A DNA stretch of 44,260 nt, taken from positions 1-44,260 of the forward strand of contig JAJPJE010000109.1 in NCBI GenBank assembly GCA_021324365.1. Direction: 5' to 3'. The notes beneath the pieces were generated by a model. The model worked only from the letters and a program-made list of their open reading frames with translations. It was not told the DNA's origin and did no database searches. Below, in pieces: positions 21,696 through 26,704 of this stretch (position 1 is its first letter; every line of letters begins with the position of its first letter). The translations under genes and the position numbers were made by a program. This DNA comes from Terriglobia bacterium (GTDB lineage Bacteria; Acidobacteriota; Terriglobia; Terriglobales; Acidobacteriaceae).

Positions 21696-22196
21696 TTACG
21701 CTGCCGCGCGTATACGACTGCTGTGCACGGGCTTTCGTTCGAGCGACAGCAAGTAGTCCAGCGCGAGGCGGCCGGGGCCAAAGATCAAGATCATCAGGCT
21801 GGCGAAGAAGAAGGTGTACGGGTCAGCGTTGTAGAACTTGCCTGGATCGGAAATGATCGAGGCCAGGGCCGCACGGTCAGCCGTGAGATAGGCGACGAAC
21901 ATGTCCACAGTGAGAAGAAGCGAGATAAAGCGCGACCCAAGTCCTGCGATCAGCAGGATGCCGCCAACGAACTCTAATCCCGACACAAACCAGGCATTCA
22001 GCGCGGGTGCAGGAATGCCGAGACTGGTGAAGAATCCGATGACCTTGTGGATGTGCTGCAGTTTGCCCCATCCGGTCTGCAGGAATTGCCACCCCCAGTA
22101 GAGACGCACTAGAAGCAGAAGTGGCGATTGCAGCGAATTGCCGACACTGCGCAAAAGTGCGTACCCGCGGGCAGCGAGTTGGGCGACAGCTTTCAT
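21696..22196 (-). CDS. DoxX-like membrane protein of the bufferin-type operon
   Basis: The product from the ATG at 22196 has 166 residues and four hydrophobic segments, including LLLLVRLYWGWQFLQTGWGK and GLEFVGGILLIAGLG, as in DoxX/DoxD family proteins. The start ATG overlaps the stop of the DUF2063 gene as ATGA, which indicates translational coupling and fixes the start. DoxX proteins accompany many DUF692/DUF2063 RiPP loci; their role there is not established. It may take part in redox chemistry at the inner membrane. An upstream extension in the open frame runs through the DUF2063 gene and is not used. Confidence 0.88.
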   Translation of the reverse strand: MKAVAQLAARGYALLRSVGNSLQSPLLLLVRLYWGWQFLQTGWGKLQHIHKVIGFFTSLGIPAPALNAWFVSGLEFVGGILLIAGLGSRFISLLLTVDMFVAYLTADRAALASIISDPGKFYNADPYTFFFASLMILIFGPGRLALDYLLSLERKPVHSSRIRAAA

Positions 22197-23080
22197 TCGT
22201 TCTCTCCATGCGAGCGGAATGGGACGGCAAACCAGCCCAGCGCCATCCAAGCGGCAAACCATTCCTGGATATGCATAGCCTGATCTTCTTCCGATAGCGG
22301 GCTTTGGGCGAATGCAGTTTCCAGAGCTTCGCTGAGCGGCTTGCGTTCCCGCAGCGTGGTCAGCAGCAGATAGGACTCGCGTTCCAGGCGTCGGTAGCAG
22401 ACCGAGTAGTCGGCGCGATGAACCGCGAGGTAGATTGGTTCCGGCGAATTCTTTAGCCAGCGGCGGATCGGAAAAGCGCGAGCTGCTCCTGTCTCTTCCT
22501 GTTCCTCATCGTGCTTGCGGACAGCGAGCAGCAGATCGTCGACGGCATAGTGCAACTCGTGGAGCGAGATGTGCGGCTGCAACAGCAACTGCGGATCTTC
22601 ACCCAAGGTCATCAGCGCTTCGGGAGTGAGTCGTGGAAGATCGGCTGCATCGAAGGCTTCGATGTGCGCCCATTCCAGCTTGAGCATGTCGGCAGCAAGG
22701 GAGTAGCGATCACCTGCCAGATCGTTGTGATCGGCGAGCCACTGCGGCAGAAACTGTCCAAGATTGCGTAATGTAAACGACTGCGACGGGCATTCGGTGA
22801 GATAAGCGCGCGCGATCCGGTCAAAGCGCTTCCGTCCAACGACGGCGCGCAGGCCCGGAAAATCCTCTGCAAACGAATCGAGAATGCGGAACCAGTACTG
22901 CCGGTTGTAAATCTCCAGCCGCTCGAAACTGGTGAGGCGCGAGTTGGGCTTGATGAACTCGGCGGCTTCCTTGGCGTTGGAGCGGCGCTGCGGATTGCGC
23001 CGCCGCATCTGGTCGGACTGGGCAAGAGGCTGCATTACTGCAGAAGCCATGCGACGCTGCAGATCAAGTAAAGGCGTCAT
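22193..23080 (-). CDS. bufC: DUF2063 protein, RiPP recognition partner of the MNIO enzyme
   Basis: This 295-residue protein fits the DUF2063/BufC family: N-terminal helical region with LTSFERLEIYNRQYWFRILDS and FPGLRAVVGRKRFDRIARAYL, then a C-terminal domain. In bufferin and related systems the DUF2063 partner binds the precursor and the DUF692 enzyme and is needed for modification. The start overlaps the DUF692 stop by four bases (ATGA), and its own stop overlaps doxX likewise. The gene symbol follows the bufferin nomenclature and is inferred from context as much as from sequence. Confidence 0.85.
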   Translation of the reverse strand: MTPLLDLQRRMASAVMQPLAQSDQMRRRNPQRRSNAKEAAEFIKPNSRLTSFERLEIYNRQYWFRILDSFAEDFPGLRAVVGRKRFDRIARAYLTECPSQSFTLRNLGQFLPQWLADHNDLAGDRYSLAADMLKLEWAHIEAFDAADLPRLTPEALMTLGEDPQLLLQPHISLHELHYAVDDLLLAVRKHDEEQEETGAARAFPIRRWLKNSPEPIYLAVHRADYSVCYRRLERESYLLLTTLRERKPLSEALETAFAQSPLSEEDQAMHIQEWFAAWMALGWFAVPFRSHGENE

Positions 23081-23964
23081 GCACGCACCTCGGTCAGCTC
23101 TCCTGCGGGGCGCTGCGGCGTCTGCGCCAAGCGCACTTTGTCGAGATACTTATTCGCCTTCAGAGCCTCGCGATGTACTTCTTCGAAGGACGGAATCTTG
23201 TCATCCCACTCGAGCAGTGTGGCAGTGGGTCCGATACGCTCGATAGCGTGCTCGTAAAGGGCCCAAACCGGGTCGATCACCGGATGGTCATGCGTATCGA
23301 GGACATACTTCTCATAACGCGAGTGCCCGGCAATATGGATCTGCGCGACGCGCTCCGCAGGAACAGAGTCGACGTAGACATGCGGATCGAAGTCGTGGTT
23401 CACCGAGCTGACGTAGATGTTGTTGACGTCGAGAAGAATGCCGCAGTCGGCGCGCTCGACGACTTCGTTCAGGAATTCCCATTCCGTCATCACGGAGTCG
23501 TGAAACTCGGCGTAGCTGCTGACGTTCTCGACAGCGATTGGCACTTCGACAAAATCGCGCACCTGGCGAATCTTTTCCGCCGTAGTGTCGACGGCTTCCC
23601 ACGTGTATGGGATGGGCAGCAGATCGTGTGTGTAGCGCCCGTCGACACTGCCCCAGCAAAGGTGATCCGTGAGCCACGGAGTGTTGGTGCGCTTCACCAG
23701 CGTTTTCAGGCGCTTCAAGTGCTCGGGGTTGAGCGGTTGCGCCGAGCCGAAGTACATCGAAACACCGTGCTGCACGACCCGGTACTGTTCGAGAATCTGA
23801 TCCAGGATGGCGAGCGGGCGGCCGCCGTCGATCATGTAGTTCTCGGAGATGATCTCGAACCAGTCGACCACCGGCTTCTGCTCGAGAATGTGGCGGTAGT
23901 GAGGGATGCGAAGACCAATTCCCACGCCGTATTCGGTAAATCCGTTGAAACGATTCGCTGGCAT
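23077..23964 (-). CDS. bufB: DUF692/MNIO multinuclear iron-dependent RiPP maturase
   Basis: The 295-residue TIM-barrel protein has the ligand set of multinuclear non-haem iron oxidative enzymes: His66 in VQHGVSM, Asp100-His101 in TDHLCW, Glu146 in VENVSSY, Asp179/Asn181 in LLDVNNIYVSSVNH, His210 and His214 in IHIAGH, His225 and His227 in DTHDHPV, and Glu252 in LEWDD. Such enzymes modify cysteines of a precursor peptide, in bufferins to thiooxazole- or oxazolone-type groups that bind copper. The gene lies about 170 bases behind the precursor gene and overlaps the DUF2063 gene. The chemistry for this particular precursor is inferred. Confidence 0.93.
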   Translation of the reverse strand: MPANRFNGFTEYGVGIGLRIPHYRHILEQKPVVDWFEIISENYMIDGGRPLAILDQILEQYRVVQHGVSMYFGSAQPLNPEHLKRLKTLVKRTNTPWLTDHLCWGSVDGRYTHDLLPIPYTWEAVDTTAEKIRQVRDFVEVPIAVENVSSYAEFHDSVMTEWEFLNEVVERADCGILLDVNNIYVSSVNHDFDPHVYVDSVPAERVAQIHIAGHSRYEKYVLDTHDHPVIDPVWALYEHAIERIGPTATLLEWDDKIPSFEEVHREALKANKYLDKVRLAQTPQRPAGELTEVRA

Positions 23965-23996
23965 AAAACCTCAGGAAAATCGGGAGATCTTGTAAT

Positions 23997-24128
23997 CGGG
24001 TAATCGGAAAGAGGATGCTCGCGTCGCGCTATTTTGGCCTCGCTACGCTCAGCCGGCGCGGTCGCTCGCCTGAATCCTTCGCTCGCAAAAGCTGCTCGCT
24101 CGAGGATGACAATCGTTCCGATTACCCG
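23997..24128. repeat. 13-bp inverted repeat between precursor and maturase genes
   Basis: CGGGTAATCGGAA (23997-24009) recurs as its exact reverse complement at 24116-24128. The enclosed 106 bases are CG-rich and contain further short palindromes of REP character. In RNA the arms could close a long hairpin just after the precursor stop codon. Such a structure could protect the precursor message or dampen read-through to the maturase, but it may also be an inserted repeat. Confidence 0.6.
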
Positions 24129-24135
24129 ACCGTGT

Positions 24136-24432
24136 TTACTCCGGCATCTTGGAGCCGTCGGTGGCGCAACCACCTTTGCCCTTGCAGGAGTTCTTGCCCT
24201 TGCATCCGTTGTCGCCGCTCTTGCAGCCGCCCTGGCCTTTGCAATCATTCTGGCCTTTACAGGCATGCTTGGTTTTGTCGGCAGCCTGCAGCAGGCTGGC
24301 GATGCTGGAGCTGCTGACGGAGTTCTGGCTGGAGCTGGGGGCGGTCTGAGCATTAAGAGTCAGGGCGCCGCCGGTCATCAGGCCGGAAACAGCGGCCGTC
24401 ATTAGAAGCGATTTCACAGTCTTCTTCGTCAT
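24136..24432 (-). CDS. bufA: Bufferin-like RiPP precursor, six-cysteine type
   Basis: The 98-residue peptide begins with a basic, hydrophobic Sec signal segment (TVKSLLMTAAVSGLMTGG...LNAQ), then a Ser/Gln-rich spacer. The C-terminal core has cysteines at 58, 64, 70, 77, 83 and 89, spaced 6, 6, 7, 6, 6. It consists of two copies of C-K-G-(Q/K)-N-(D/S)-C-K-G-(Q/K)-G-G-C joined by KSGDNG. This resembles the second family of bufferin precursors, secreted peptides whose modified Cys bind copper. The ATG at 24432 is preceded by AGGAAAGAAG; the longer frame upstream has no protein character. It is followed by bufB, bufC and a DoxX gene and preceded by an ECF-type promoter. Confidence 0.88.
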   Translation of the reverse strand: MTKKTVKSLLMTAAVSGLMTGGALTLNAQTAPSSSQNSVSSSSIASLLQAADKTKHACKGQNDCKGQGGCKSGDNGCKGKNSCKGKGGCATDGSKMPE

Positions 24433-24513
24433 CTTCTTTCCTCGTGAGGTAATTTGGATTGTCCCTGGAACGGACCGCGCCAGCAGGTGCTGCCGGGTGC
24501 CATCCTCATGGCA

Positions 24514-24542
24514 TACGACTGCCAAGTGCGGCAAAGGTTACA
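24514..24542 (-). promoter_or_regulatory. Candidate ECF promoter of the bufferin-like operon
   Basis: On the minus strand TGTAAC (24542-24537) and GTCGTA (24519-24514) are separated by exactly 17 bases. The same pattern with the same spacing occurs in front of the divergent sigma gene. Transcription would start near 24506, about 75 bases before the precursor ATG. Confidence 0.65.
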
Positions 24543-24585
24543 GGGTCGGACGAAAAAAGGCCAGTCCCCCTACTTGTCATAGGGT

Positions 24586-24614
24586 TGTAACTTACGGTCG
24601 AATCGCGAGTCTTA
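24586..24614 (+). promoter_or_regulatory. Candidate autoregulated promoter of the ECF sigma gene
   Basis: TGTAAC (24586-24591) and GTCTTA (24609-24614) are separated by 17 bases, as in the divergent promoter. This places the -35 elements of both promoters about 43 bases apart, back to back. It predicts a start near 24621 and supports the ATG at 24647 for the sigma factor. Confidence 0.65.
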
Positions 24615-24646
24615 CACTGTTTGGCTGGGGTTCCTTGCCTGAGCGC

Positions 24647-25327
24647 ATGCCGGAATCGCTACAAAACGCAGCCGGTAACGTCGAAAGCTCCGATTCAGTT
24701 CGGGTACGCGATGGGGAACTGATCCGGCGCGTGCTGGCGGGCGAACGTGAGCTTTTCCATGAACTGATCCGGCCTTATGAGAAAGCTGTATATCTCACAG
24801 CGTACTCACTTTTGCAGAACGAAGCGGATGCTGAGGAAGTTGCACAAGAAGCAGTGCTGAAAGCGTACCGGAAGCTGGCGACGTTTCGCGGCGACGCTAA
24901 ATTCAGTACCTGGCTGATCACGATTGCGGTGAACGAAGCGCGCGGGCGATTGCGTCACGCCAGGCTGATCGCTTTCGAGTCGATCGACGAGCCGGCAGAC
25001 GAAGACAGCGACGTAGTTCCAGCGGTGATCTCCGACTGGCGCGAGATTCCCAATGAGACGCTGGAACGGAAAGAAGTCCGCGACTTGCTGAGACAGGCGA
25101 TGGAAAGCTTACCGCAAGCGTATCGCGAAGTTTTTGTCTTGCGTGATGTAGAAGAAATGAACATCGCCGAGACCGCGGAGGCTCTGGGAATCAATGAGCA
25201 ATTAGTAAAGACACGGCTGCTGCGCGCCCGGTTGATGATGCAAAAGATTTTGGCGCCACAACTGAAAACGCGACGCACGGGATTCCTGGGATTTTTCAGT
25301 CGCAAGGCTGGTGGATCATGGCTCTAA
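24647..25327 (+). CDS. ECF-type RNA polymerase sigma factor
   Basis: The 226-residue product contains sigma region 2 (HELIRPYEKAVYLTAYSLLQNEADAEEVAQEAVLKAYRKL region, then FRGDAKFSTWLITIAVNEARGRLR) and region 4 (LPQAYREVFVLRDVEEMNIAETAEALGINEQLVKTRLLRARLMM). Regions 1 and 3 are absent, as expected for extracytoplasmic-function sigmas. The frame is open from 24497, but the putative promoter at 24586-24614 argues for ATG 24647. It overlaps the anti-sigma gene by ten bases and is divergent from the bufferin-like precursor, which carries the same promoter pattern. It probably controls both. Confidence 0.93.
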   Translation: MPESLQNAAGNVESSDSVRVRDGELIRRVLAGERELFHELIRPYEKAVYLTAYSLLQNEADAEEVAQEAVLKAYRKLATFRGDAKFSTWLITIAVNEARGRLRHARLIAFESIDEPADEDSDVVPAVISDWREIPNETLERKEVRDLLRQAMESLPQAYREVFVLRDVEEMNIAETAEALGINEQLVKTRLLRARLMMQKILAPQLKTRRTGFLGFFSRKAGGSWL

Positions 25328-25554
25328 ACTGCAAACACGTCTGGAAGCAGATTTCGGATTACATCGACGGCACGGTTTCTCCGGAGCTGCGCGAAGAAAT
25401 CGAGATCCACCTCGCCGGTTGCCGCCATTGCTCCGCCGTTCTCGATTCCACGCGCAATATCCTGGTGCTGGTTGCTGACGATCGGACGTTCAATCTGCCG
25501 GTGGGGTATAGCGAGAGGCTGCATAAGAAGCTGGAGCAAGCCATGAAGGAGTGA
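25318..25554 (+). CDS. Zinc-finger anti-sigma factor (ZAS/zf-HC2)
   Basis: The 78-residue protein has the ZAS signature His31-x3-Cys35-x2-Cys38 in HLAGCRHCSA plus a preceding Cys5/His7, and the helix CKHVWKQISDYIDGTVSPELREEIE. Such proteins hold their ECF sigma inactive and release it on oxidation or metal stress. It has no membrane segment, so it senses a cytosolic signal. The start overlaps the sigma stop, typical of sigma/anti-sigma pairs. Confidence 0.92.
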   Translation: MALNCKHVWKQISDYIDGTVSPELREEIEIHLAGCRHCSAVLDSTRNILVLVADDRTFNLPVGYSERLHKKLEQAMKE

Positions 25555-25635: not shown

Positions 25636-26157
25636 CTAGATCTCATGATGAAACCACGGGTGCGTAATCACTTCGGCGGTAATCAACAGCAATGCCAGTA
25701 CTGACGTTACGAGCTGAATCATGCGGCGGCGCTTTTGCTGTTTTGTCAGGGGACGAATGCGCCACGCCGCTGCCGGGTTATTGCGAAGCCGGTTCTCATT
25801 CCACCATAAAAGCAGATTCAACAGGGCTCCGATTGTTCCGGCAACAAGGAAAGGAACGCGAATCGATTCGCGATGCCATCCGGTGGCAGGGCCCCCGGCG
25901 GTTGCAGCTATGAGCGACGACGCGCCGATCAGCACACGAAATCCACTGAGACCGACGGCAGCGACGCAAAGACTTTCAGCGGTCGCGAGCGCAAGCGATC
26001 CCCAGCTCAACAACGTGGTCGCGAGGCGCGATGGTTGGGGGACCCTCGAGATCGGAACAGGTTCCGCCCGCACTTCCCTGCGAACAGCTGGATTTCCCAC
26101 AAACTCTCCCAGTGGAACGACTGGTACCAGCTTATCTGATGTGGAAACGAGCTGCAC
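25636..26157 (-). CDS. Multi-pass membrane protein of unknown function
   Basis: The product of about 173 residues has three to four hydrophobic segments: TTLLSWGSLALATAESLCVAAV, a Gly/Ala-rich middle, LVAGTIGALLNLLLWWN and IQLVTSVLALLLITAEVI. A soluble N-terminus rich in Pro and Val precedes them. I recognise no family. The open frame begins at 26292 but runs through a terminator hairpin, so I prefer the GTG at 26157 (VQLVSTSDK). It lies next to the anti-sigma gene in convergent orientation. Confidence 0.6.
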   Translation of the reverse strand: MQLVSTSDKLVPVVPLGEFVGNPAVRREVRAEPVPISRVPQPSRLATTLLSWGSLALATAESLCVAAVGLSGFRVLIGASSLIAATAGGPATGWHRESIRVPFLVAGTIGALLNLLLWWNENRLRNNPAAAWRIRPLTKQQKRRRMIQLVTSVLALLLITAEVITHPWFHHEI

Positions 26158-26193
26158 GTTGCCATACTTTAAGTTGCATGACAAAACAGAACA

Positions 26194-26222
26194 GGGGCCT
26201 CGCTTCCCCAAGTCGAGGCCCC
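26194..26222 (-). terminator. Terminator after the secreted lipocalin-like protein gene
   Basis: GGGGCCTCG and CGAGGCCCC form a perfect 9-bp stem with an 11-base loop. On the minus strand the sequence after it is T-rich (TGTTCTGTTTTG). It lies nine bases beyond the stop of the gene at 26231-26704. Confidence 0.75.
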
Positions 26223-26230
26223 AGGCGCCC

Positions 26231-26704
26231 TCAGTGAGTCTCCGCCTCCCACGAGAGTCGCTTCTTGCCGATACTGCGCACCGAGAGAACACCCGGCGGG
26301 GCTACGACAACGGTGTCCAGTTCCAGGCCATTGAGCGCAATCACAAAGTTTGTAGTAACAGGAGGCCTCCCGTCAGTGAAGTTGATGGTGAACGTGCCGG
26401 TGCAATCCGAGTTGACGGAGTACTTGCCGTTCGCGACCGGATGTGTGAAGTCGGCAACAACGGCTCCATTTACGCTCACCGTGTCAATTTGCGTTAGCGT
26501 TCCATCGGGACGAAAGGTCGTCATGGCCACACCCTTCATAGGTCCCACCGGGGTGTTAGGCGGACCGGCGAGCTTCTCTCCTTCAACGGTGAAGCTGTAG
26601 GTGCCCACAATCAAATGATCGTTACAAGCAGGAGATACGGTCTGCGCCTGCGCAGTAGCGGCAGCAAAGCAGGCGGCGATCAGCAGTGCAAATAGGGTTT
26701 TCAT
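26231..26704 (-). CDS. Secreted protein of unknown function
   Basis: From the ATG at 26704 the product has 157 residues and a clear signal peptide (KTLFALLIAACFAAATAQAQ). The mature part, with GTYSFTVEGEKL, MTTFRPDGTLTQIDTVSVNG and NGKYSVNSDCTGTFTINF, resembles small beta-barrel proteins common in soil bacteria; the barrel is inferred. GGTGAGGA precedes the ATG. It stands alone and is followed by a strong terminator. Confidence 0.8.
   Translation of the reverse strand: MKTLFALLIAACFAAATAQAQTVSPACNDHLIVGTYSFTVEGEKLAGPPNTPVGPMKGVAMTTFRPDGTLTQIDTVSVNGAVVADFTHPVANGKYSVNSDCTGTFTINFTDGRPPVTTNFVIALNGLELDTVVVAPPGVLSVRSIGKKRLSWEAETH

Follow-up and report, generated by a model that had tools for sequence, protein, structure and literature searches.

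A bufferin-type locus with a Buf2-like precursor adjoining an ECF sigma factor and a ZAS anti-sigma factor in an acidobacterium

The window analysed here, a stretch of 44,260 nucleotides from a Terriglobia bacterium of the family Acidobacteriaceae (assembly GCA_021324365.1, contig JAJPJE010000109.1), carries a bufferin-type locus with regulatory genes of its own. A Cys-rich precursor, a multinuclear non-heme iron-dependent oxidative enzyme (MNIO), a DUF2063 partner protein and a DoxX-like membrane protein are encoded on the minus strand; an extracytoplasmic function (ECF) sigma factor and a soluble zinc-binding anti-sigma (ZAS) factor are encoded divergently. The sigma pair is kept beside such loci in relatives, a promoter motif is common to both units, and the strict form of the motif is nearly exclusive to the locus in the source genome. 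The locus is probably a self-contained, sigma-switched captophorin/bufferin module. Regulation of the precursor operon by the adjoining sigma factor is well supported by sequence comparison; that this factor binds the motif, that thiol oxidation or copper is the signal, and that the product is a modified, metal-binding peptide are inferences. The features that carry this reading are as follows.

24136..24432 (-), precursor peptide gene, 98 aa; Sec-type signal peptide (by eye), linker and a 6-Cys core, KHACKGQNDCKGQGGCKSGDNGCKGKNSCKGKGGCATDGSK, that is Buf2-like and of the Cys-Lys type
23077..23964 (-), MNIO (DUF692) bufferin maturase; PF05114 368 bits, NCBIfam MNIO_BufB 353.7 bits, EWDD motif
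22193..23080 (-), DUF2063 partner protein; PF09836 56.8 bits, ATGA overlap with the MNIO gene
21696..22196 (-), DoxX-like membrane protein; PF07681 70.3 bits, ATGA overlap with the DUF2063 gene
24647..25327 (+), ECF sigma factor; Sigma70_r2 59.3 bits, r4_2 59.1 bits, placed by the clade tree, start taken as the first ATG
25318..25554 (+), ZAS (zf-HC2) anti-sigma factor, 78 aa, no transmembrane segment by eye; PF13490 47.3 bits
24514..24542 (-), precursor operon, predicted promoter for the ECF sigma; TGTAAC-N18-TCGTA, 82 nt upstream of the precursor ATG
24586..24614 (+), sigma gene, predicted promoter for autoregulation; TGTAAC-N18-TCTTA, 33 nt upstream of the sigma ATG

A sequence-only reading of the window had proposed this six-gene locus, and all six genes were found where it had put them; the Pfam cut-offs were passed by the MNIO, DUF2063, DoxX, ECF and ZAS proteins, though not by the precursor. 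Its description of a bufferin-type locus with its own ECF and soluble ZAS factors is upheld, with the reservation that the precursor misses the BufA2 cut-off. The ATGA overlaps it reported are real at the MNIO/DUF2063 and DUF2063/DoxX junctions, while the precursor gene stands outside this chain, 171 bp from the MNIO gene; the sigma and anti-sigma genes also overlap each other. It overlooked a conserved membrane protein on the regulatory side (25636-26292, minus strand).

Linkage of the sigma pair to bufferin loci

The source genome (4.44 Mb, 125 contigs) has one PF05114 match, and 58 of 150 same-family genomes contain the domain. The window and 49 further places gave 50 loci, 47 of them with a match to the window-like precursor (in L041 the frame consists of the signal part only, with zero Cys); 13 weaker PF05114 places lay outside the initial set, two of them within L094 and L114. 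ECF and ZAS genes occurred within ∼3.5 kb of the MNIO start at 28 loci. In a joint, midpoint-rooted ECF/ZAS tree, 25 of these pairs fell in a single clade of 37 rows (SH-aLRT 99) and that of L039 in another clade; L034 (frame broken) and L040 (cut at a contig end) were left out of the tree together with stray ECF fragments and are unplaced, their ZAS proteins scoring 132 and 142 bits with the ZAS model. A pair of the window type therefore lies near 27 of the 47 loci with a window-like precursor, counting the two unplaced ones. These 27 show five gene orders: the sigma genes lie upstream, divergently in 6 loci and codirectionally in 5, or within the operon on its downstream side in 10, and a DoxX-ECF-ZAS arrangement is placed upstream and divergently in 5 or downstream and convergently in one. 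Comparison of neighbourhoods in relatives had been named beforehand as a possible refutation of the link between the two gene sets; the link survived it, the pair being kept at 27/47 loci and the promoter motif being common to both units. One further clade member, L094, adjoins a broken locus, where the bufferin genes appear to be decaying and the sigma pair is intact.

The anti-sigma factor has the ligand motif C5-X25-H31-X3-C35-X2-C38, which corresponds to the ZAS pattern C/H-X23-26-H-X3-C-X2-C next to an ECF gene, and the four ligands are invariant over 25 aligned rows. It failed the profile of RsrA, a redox ZAS that frees its sigma factor under disulfide stress (33.6 bits, cut-off 62.5), and a PDB sequence search with it returned a single weak match (3hug_B, E 0.038).

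Outside the family, the ZAS model found no match in 40 loci, a selection from 98 positive of 396 genomes of other families of the phylum, and weak ECF matches appeared in three. Among the best 80 MNIO loci of named genomes, a set that overlaps the same-family one, 23 had a ZAS of the window type (at least 130 bits), all in Acidobacteriota. The closest named MNIO loci were mostly from Acidobacteriaceae (Edaphobacter, Granulicella, Silvibacterium, Bryocella and metagenome-assembled genomes), with Verrucomicrobiota lower down, which agrees with the earlier guess of a likely acidobacterium. The module is present in named isolates of Edaphobacter (L178), Granulicella (L204, L218), Silvibacterium (L206) and Bryocella (L197), so that the question of the signal, copper versus thiol oxidation, can be addressed outside pathogens.

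Other sigma factors were also encountered. An ECF match lacking a window-type ZAS was seen at 12 of the best 80 named loci, including L176 and L187. Other ECF sigmas lie less than ∼5 kb from loci of the Buf2-like kind, in Verrucomicrobiota, in Planctomycetota and in further Acidobacteriota (L209, L216, L227, L230, L233, L234, L240, L242, L252, L254); in L254 the sigma gene is followed by one for a short protein with H-X3-C-X2-C and no Pfam match.

A promoter motif common to both units

At loci with the ECF/ZAS pair, [TC]GT[AT]AC was found upstream of 27/27 precursors; in 26 of these upstreams TCnnA follows at 18-19 nt to give the full form (the exception is L043). TGTAAC itself stood in 23/27 precursor upstreams, compared with a mean of 0.60 in 200 shuffles, which ignore kinship. 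Over 29 sites, the gap between the box and TCnnA was 18 in 21 and 19 in 5, with gaps of 10, 13 and 16 in 3, 1 and 1. TGTAAC also preceded 13 of the 27 ECF or DoxX-ECF genes, in full form in 7; in 10 of the other 14 the operon places the ECF gene after DoxX, and two of these ten, L052 and L061, also have a full motif before doxX, beyond the 200-nt upstream region used. Upstreams of the conserved membrane protein served as a control: TGTAAC occurred in 1/24 against 0.49 expected, and the full form in 1/24 (L064).

The strict motif TGTAACYTN{16,17}TCNNA matched three times in the whole source genome. Two of the matches are the predicted promoters of the locus, 24514-24542(-) and 24586-24614(+); the third, on contig C14, faces away from both flanking genes, on the other strand. 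A looser form matched twice in the window against 0.20 expected, a count reached by 2 of 100 shuffles. A sigma-70 promoter scan returned one site, and none between the precursor and sigma genes. A genome-wide regulon was considered and rejected: no larger regulon is claimed because the strict motif was not enriched over the backwards control in the source genome (3 versus 4). Across the 150 family genomes, where matches were tabulated by genome and not summed, there was no obvious excess. The locus offers a precise predicted promoter and an apparent one-locus regulon.

Presence of the motif was also compared with presence of the sigma factor across genomes. The motif was present in 28/30 loci whose genome holds a window-type ECF and in 3/14 of those where none was found, with L050, L051 and L076, which lie near contig ends, set aside; the 14 genomes were assigned by reading profile and tree results, and some genomes are incomplete. 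Among named genomes, which overlap the first set, the motif was seen in 21/23 with a window-type ECF, 6/43 with no ECF and 1/12 with another ECF. Bufferin loci beside an ECF/ZAS pair of another type were L039 (other clade) and L176 and L187 (low model scores); the full motif was not found in L039 and L176, and L187 has a variant.

Several observations weigh against a module switched by its own sigma factor, as do the score of the precursor and the behaviour of the Neisseria pair, both treated below. The motif is present in L042, L057 and L065, where no window-type ECF was found; in L043 and L055 the -35 box is present and the -10 part absent. Six of the 13 TGTAAC-bearing ECF upstreams lack an exact TCnnA at 18-19 nt. 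At L031, L040, L043 and L056, where the ECF gene lies upstream of the precursor, no box precedes the ECF start taken (in L040 and L043 the ECF gene is at a contig end). A phylogeny-aware test of ECF against motif was not significant, with p 0.05 out of reach: co-occurrence loses significance once kinship is allowed for because the MNIO tree holds only 3-4 independent changes, and kinship can explain the correlation. Finally, 11 of the 37 clade rows have no adjacent bufferin locus, and the genomes of two of them (L080, L081) have no MNIO match at all.

These clade members, and the occurrence of ZAS relatives at E ≤ 1e-8 in 128/150 same-family genomes, are what might be expected if the two gene sets were chance neighbours, the ECF/ZAS pair serving other genes and its nearness to the bufferin locus being a family-wide relic. 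The preservation of the pair through five arrangements, and a promoter motif that is common to both units and in strict form nearly confined to the locus, make such a relic very unlikely.

Class of the precursor and of the maturase

The only NCBIfam match of the precursor was BufA2, at 35.1 bits (E 1.1e-8), below the curated cut-off of 60; because of this score the precursor is labelled Buf2-like rather than a BufA2 member. Precursors of two family relatives scored 36.1 and 47.9 bits against the same cut-off, and 23 of 25 aligned precursors matched BufA2 at E ≤ 0.01 (best E 1.4e-12). The core is mostly kept across 25 aligned rows. Six Cys were counted in 36 of 47 window-like precursors and other numbers in 11, six of these having 4 Cys. 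The 4-Cys form accompanies the DoxX-ECF-ZAS arrangement (L034, L053, L063, L067, L070, L074, L094).

The window MNIO passed the NCBIfam MNIO_BufB cut-off (353.7 bits against 310), and a PDB sequence search with the MNIO profile returned six chains, 3bww_A being the best. In Cys-Lys MNIOs the catalytic Asp is followed by a further Asp, according to the text of PMC13097082. In a comparison made without alignment to FonB itself, the residue after the presumed catalytic Asp was D in the window MNIO (EWDD), A in the Buf1-linked L167, N in L166, A in L169 and S in the Buf2-like L254. The extra Asp of the window enzyme and the Cys-Lys core of its precursor fit the Cys-Lys group as that text describes it. 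Elsewhere in the set, L047-L049 have lower-scoring MNIOs and no window-like precursor, and the MNIO gene of L060 is interrupted by a stop.

The scores under 60 in the window and two relatives, together with the variable Cys counts, could mean that the precursor is not made into a bufferin at all, the MNIO yielding another product or the Cys-rich protein acting unmodified. This seems unlikely, since the MNIO is above the BufB cut-off, the DUF2063 partner is present, and the extra Asp of the enzyme and the core of the precursor agree with the Cys-Lys group (PMC13097082). With the Buf2 bufferins (BUF_6/12Cys, BufA2; Cys-Lys captophorins) the locus shares 6 Cys, a putative signal peptide, a BufB-class MNIO, DUF2063 and DoxX; it differs in adding the ECF/ZAS pair and in the BufA2 score of its precursor. 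Conversion of Cys to 5-thiooxazole and copper binding are further marks of that class.

Published systems and the proposed switch

The closest published counterpart is the meningococcal (Neisseria) operon NMB2140-NMB2145, an oxazolin/gonophorin-type MNIO cluster. It regulates itself and encodes DoxX, three proteins then unknown, sigmaE and MseR, a ZAS protein (PMC2893595, 2010); PMC7907618 matches this cluster to the H. influenzae COG3767, COG3220/UPF0276 and DUF2063 genes, i.e. precursor, MNIO and partner. Judged by gene content and promoter against the text of PMC2893595, the window locus is of this type, having the ECF, ZAS and MNIO/DUF2063/DoxX gene classes. The Neisseria promoter (-35 GTMAGBWTT, -10 CGTCTAAH, spacer 12-13; PMC2893595) is close to the GTAACcT...TCTaA seen here, with a start-to-start spacing of 23-24 in both by our arithmetic. 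Neisseria has an EGKCG-type precursor (gonophorin, PMC13097082), and its sigma factor has msrAB as a further target; the window has a Buf2-like precursor, divergent genes and an extra membrane protein alongside. The likeness is one of gene classes and promoter. In H. influenzae, RpoE2 and HrsE (an ECF factor and a 67-aa anti-sigma with the ZAS motif), studied under hypochlorite, control the hvf cluster, which likewise comprises DoxX, a periplasmic protein, MNIO and DUF2063 (PMC7907618). There the sigma genes lie apart from the cluster, msrAB and mtsZ are also controlled (PMC7907618), and the precursor is an oxazolin (PMC13419390).

In Caulobacter, SigF controls DUF2282-MNIO-DUF2063(-DoxX) operons of the Buf1 class under dichromate from a GTAACC-N16-CGAA promoter (PMC3511200). 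These are again ECF-controlled precursor operons with a GTAACC -35, but the anti-sigma is the membrane protein NrsF, the precursor is Buf1 and the -10 is CGAA (PMC3511200). Membership of the window pair in the SigF/NrsF group was rejected: the anti-sigma matches zf-HC2 only and not NrsF, and the NrsF-linked ECF of L167 scores weakly. That acidobacterial locus (L167:3576-5192) shows the classic arrangement, a Buf1 (DUF2282) precursor with ECF and NrsF; its score with the present ECF model is only 38 bits.

The sequence-only reading had called a cytosolic ZAS with this precursor type unusual. A ZAS protein with an MNIO locus is already in print for Neisseria (PMC2893595) and H. influenzae (PMC7907618), and what remains unusual is the Buf2-like precursor. 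ZAS-governed MNIO peptide modules are thus known, and a Buf2-like precursor under ECF/ZAS is new because the survey in PMC12452194, in its main text, saw sigma and NrsF genes in Buf1 biosynthetic gene clusters and not in Buf2 ones. That text (figures not covered) has no word beginning Acidobacter. Searches of an open-access library, a scope that leaves subscription papers and the founding bufferin paper aside, turned up neither a description of ECF/ZAS with Buf2 nor one of acidobacterial bufferins. The window locus would carry the control of MNIO peptides by sigma and ZAS factors beyond Neisseria and Haemophilus, with their EGKCG type, to soil bacteria with Buf2-like precursors, counter to the survey statement of PMC12452194, the only such published statement found. 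One idea would then join the Neisseria, Haemophilus and Caulobacter cases, namely that MNIO peptides are part of circuits for sulfur/metal stress of the envelope whose -35 is of the GTAA or GTMA type.

In the proposed module, the soluble ZAS protein would hold the ECF sigma in the unstressed cell. Oxidation of its zinc/thiol cluster (C5, H31, C35, C38), or displacement of the zinc, by thiol or envelope oxidants or by thiophilic metals such as copper, would free the sigma factor to fire two divergent promoters of the same type, one for its own gene (positive feedback) and one for the precursor-MNIO-DUF2063-DoxX operon. The MNIO/DUF2063 pair would then convert the core Cys, probably to 5-thiooxazoles; the peptide would be exported by Sec and, once mature, would bind a periplasmic metal, copper or one like it, and DoxX may have a linked sulfur/redox role. 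The Neisseria sigmaE-MseR pair is not induced by peroxide, diamide or singlet oxygen (PMC2893595), which cautions against assuming a switch by oxidants of the RsrA kind.

That copper or another thiophilic metal is the signal, Cu(I) displacing the ZAS zinc and the locus acting as a dedicated copper buffer, is possible if somewhat doubtful. Bufferins are copper chelators that improve growth in the presence of copper stress (PMC12452194), the Caulobacter operons respond through sigF under dichromate (PMC3511200, in whose text the word copper is absent), and the near confinement of the strict motif to the locus would suit such a dedicated role. The anti-sigma, however, is a soluble ZAS and not a membrane NrsF, and the motif precedes genes of the methionine-sulfoxide-repair type in sister and some clade loci. 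In L080, a clade member whose genome has no MNIO match, it stands before an Oxidored_molyb gene (MsrP-like by our reading) that is followed by cytochrome b561, and before the gene of a small, secreted protein rich in Met, His and Asp. Loci outside the clade have it before Oxidored_molyb and lactonase-like genes (L101) and MsrA (PMSR, L097). These identities come from Pfam on ten chosen proteins at chosen loci, not from a survey. Because the motif precedes MsrP-like/MsrA genes near related sigmas, envelope sulfur oxidation is suggested as the older signal. Near another related ECF/ZAS pair (L110), the same motif precedes the gene of an MKHDNM-repeat protein, and another protein also has it upstream at the bufferin loci L063, L067 and L074 and at L094, the decayed one; this protein is DUF1223 in L063, the sole one tested.

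The membrane protein beside the anti-sigma gene, here called TMP, is listed with the one other feature of the locus.

25636..26292 (-), TMP, conserved membrane protein outside the known families; its gene converges on that of the anti-sigma factor
23965..24135 (-), precursor/MNIO spacer, 171 bp, contains an interspersed palindromic repeat; fold z-score -2.3

Its open frame is 218 aa, of which ∼145 aa are conserved, and the true start is unsure. It was present at 24/27 ECF/ZAS bufferin loci, with 39 matches in all among the loci examined (L031-L119), and it also accompanies ECF/ZAS pairs at loci without bufferin genes. Some of its H, R and W residues are invariant. The window protein had no Pfam and no NCBIfam match, and NCBIfam over 27 TMP proteins gave four families with one weak member match each. 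An AlphaFold2 model shows three long helices (mean predicted local distance difference test score 82), and a fold search found no PDB match at E ≤ 0.001. It is conceivable, if improbable, that an ancestral ECF/ZAS switch for envelope sulfur repair, with targets of the MsrP/MsrA type, came in Acidobacteriaceae to drive a single Buf2-like peptide operon instead, the three-helix TMP being a membrane sensor that relays a periplasmic metal or oxidant signal to ZAS. If true, this would make a three-part signalling chain of membrane sensor, ZAS and sigma, and a bufferin class answering oxidation, not copper; we know of no ZAS system with such a chain.

The interspersed palindromic repeat that lies within the precursor/MNIO spacer has 8 more partial matches elsewhere in the genome.

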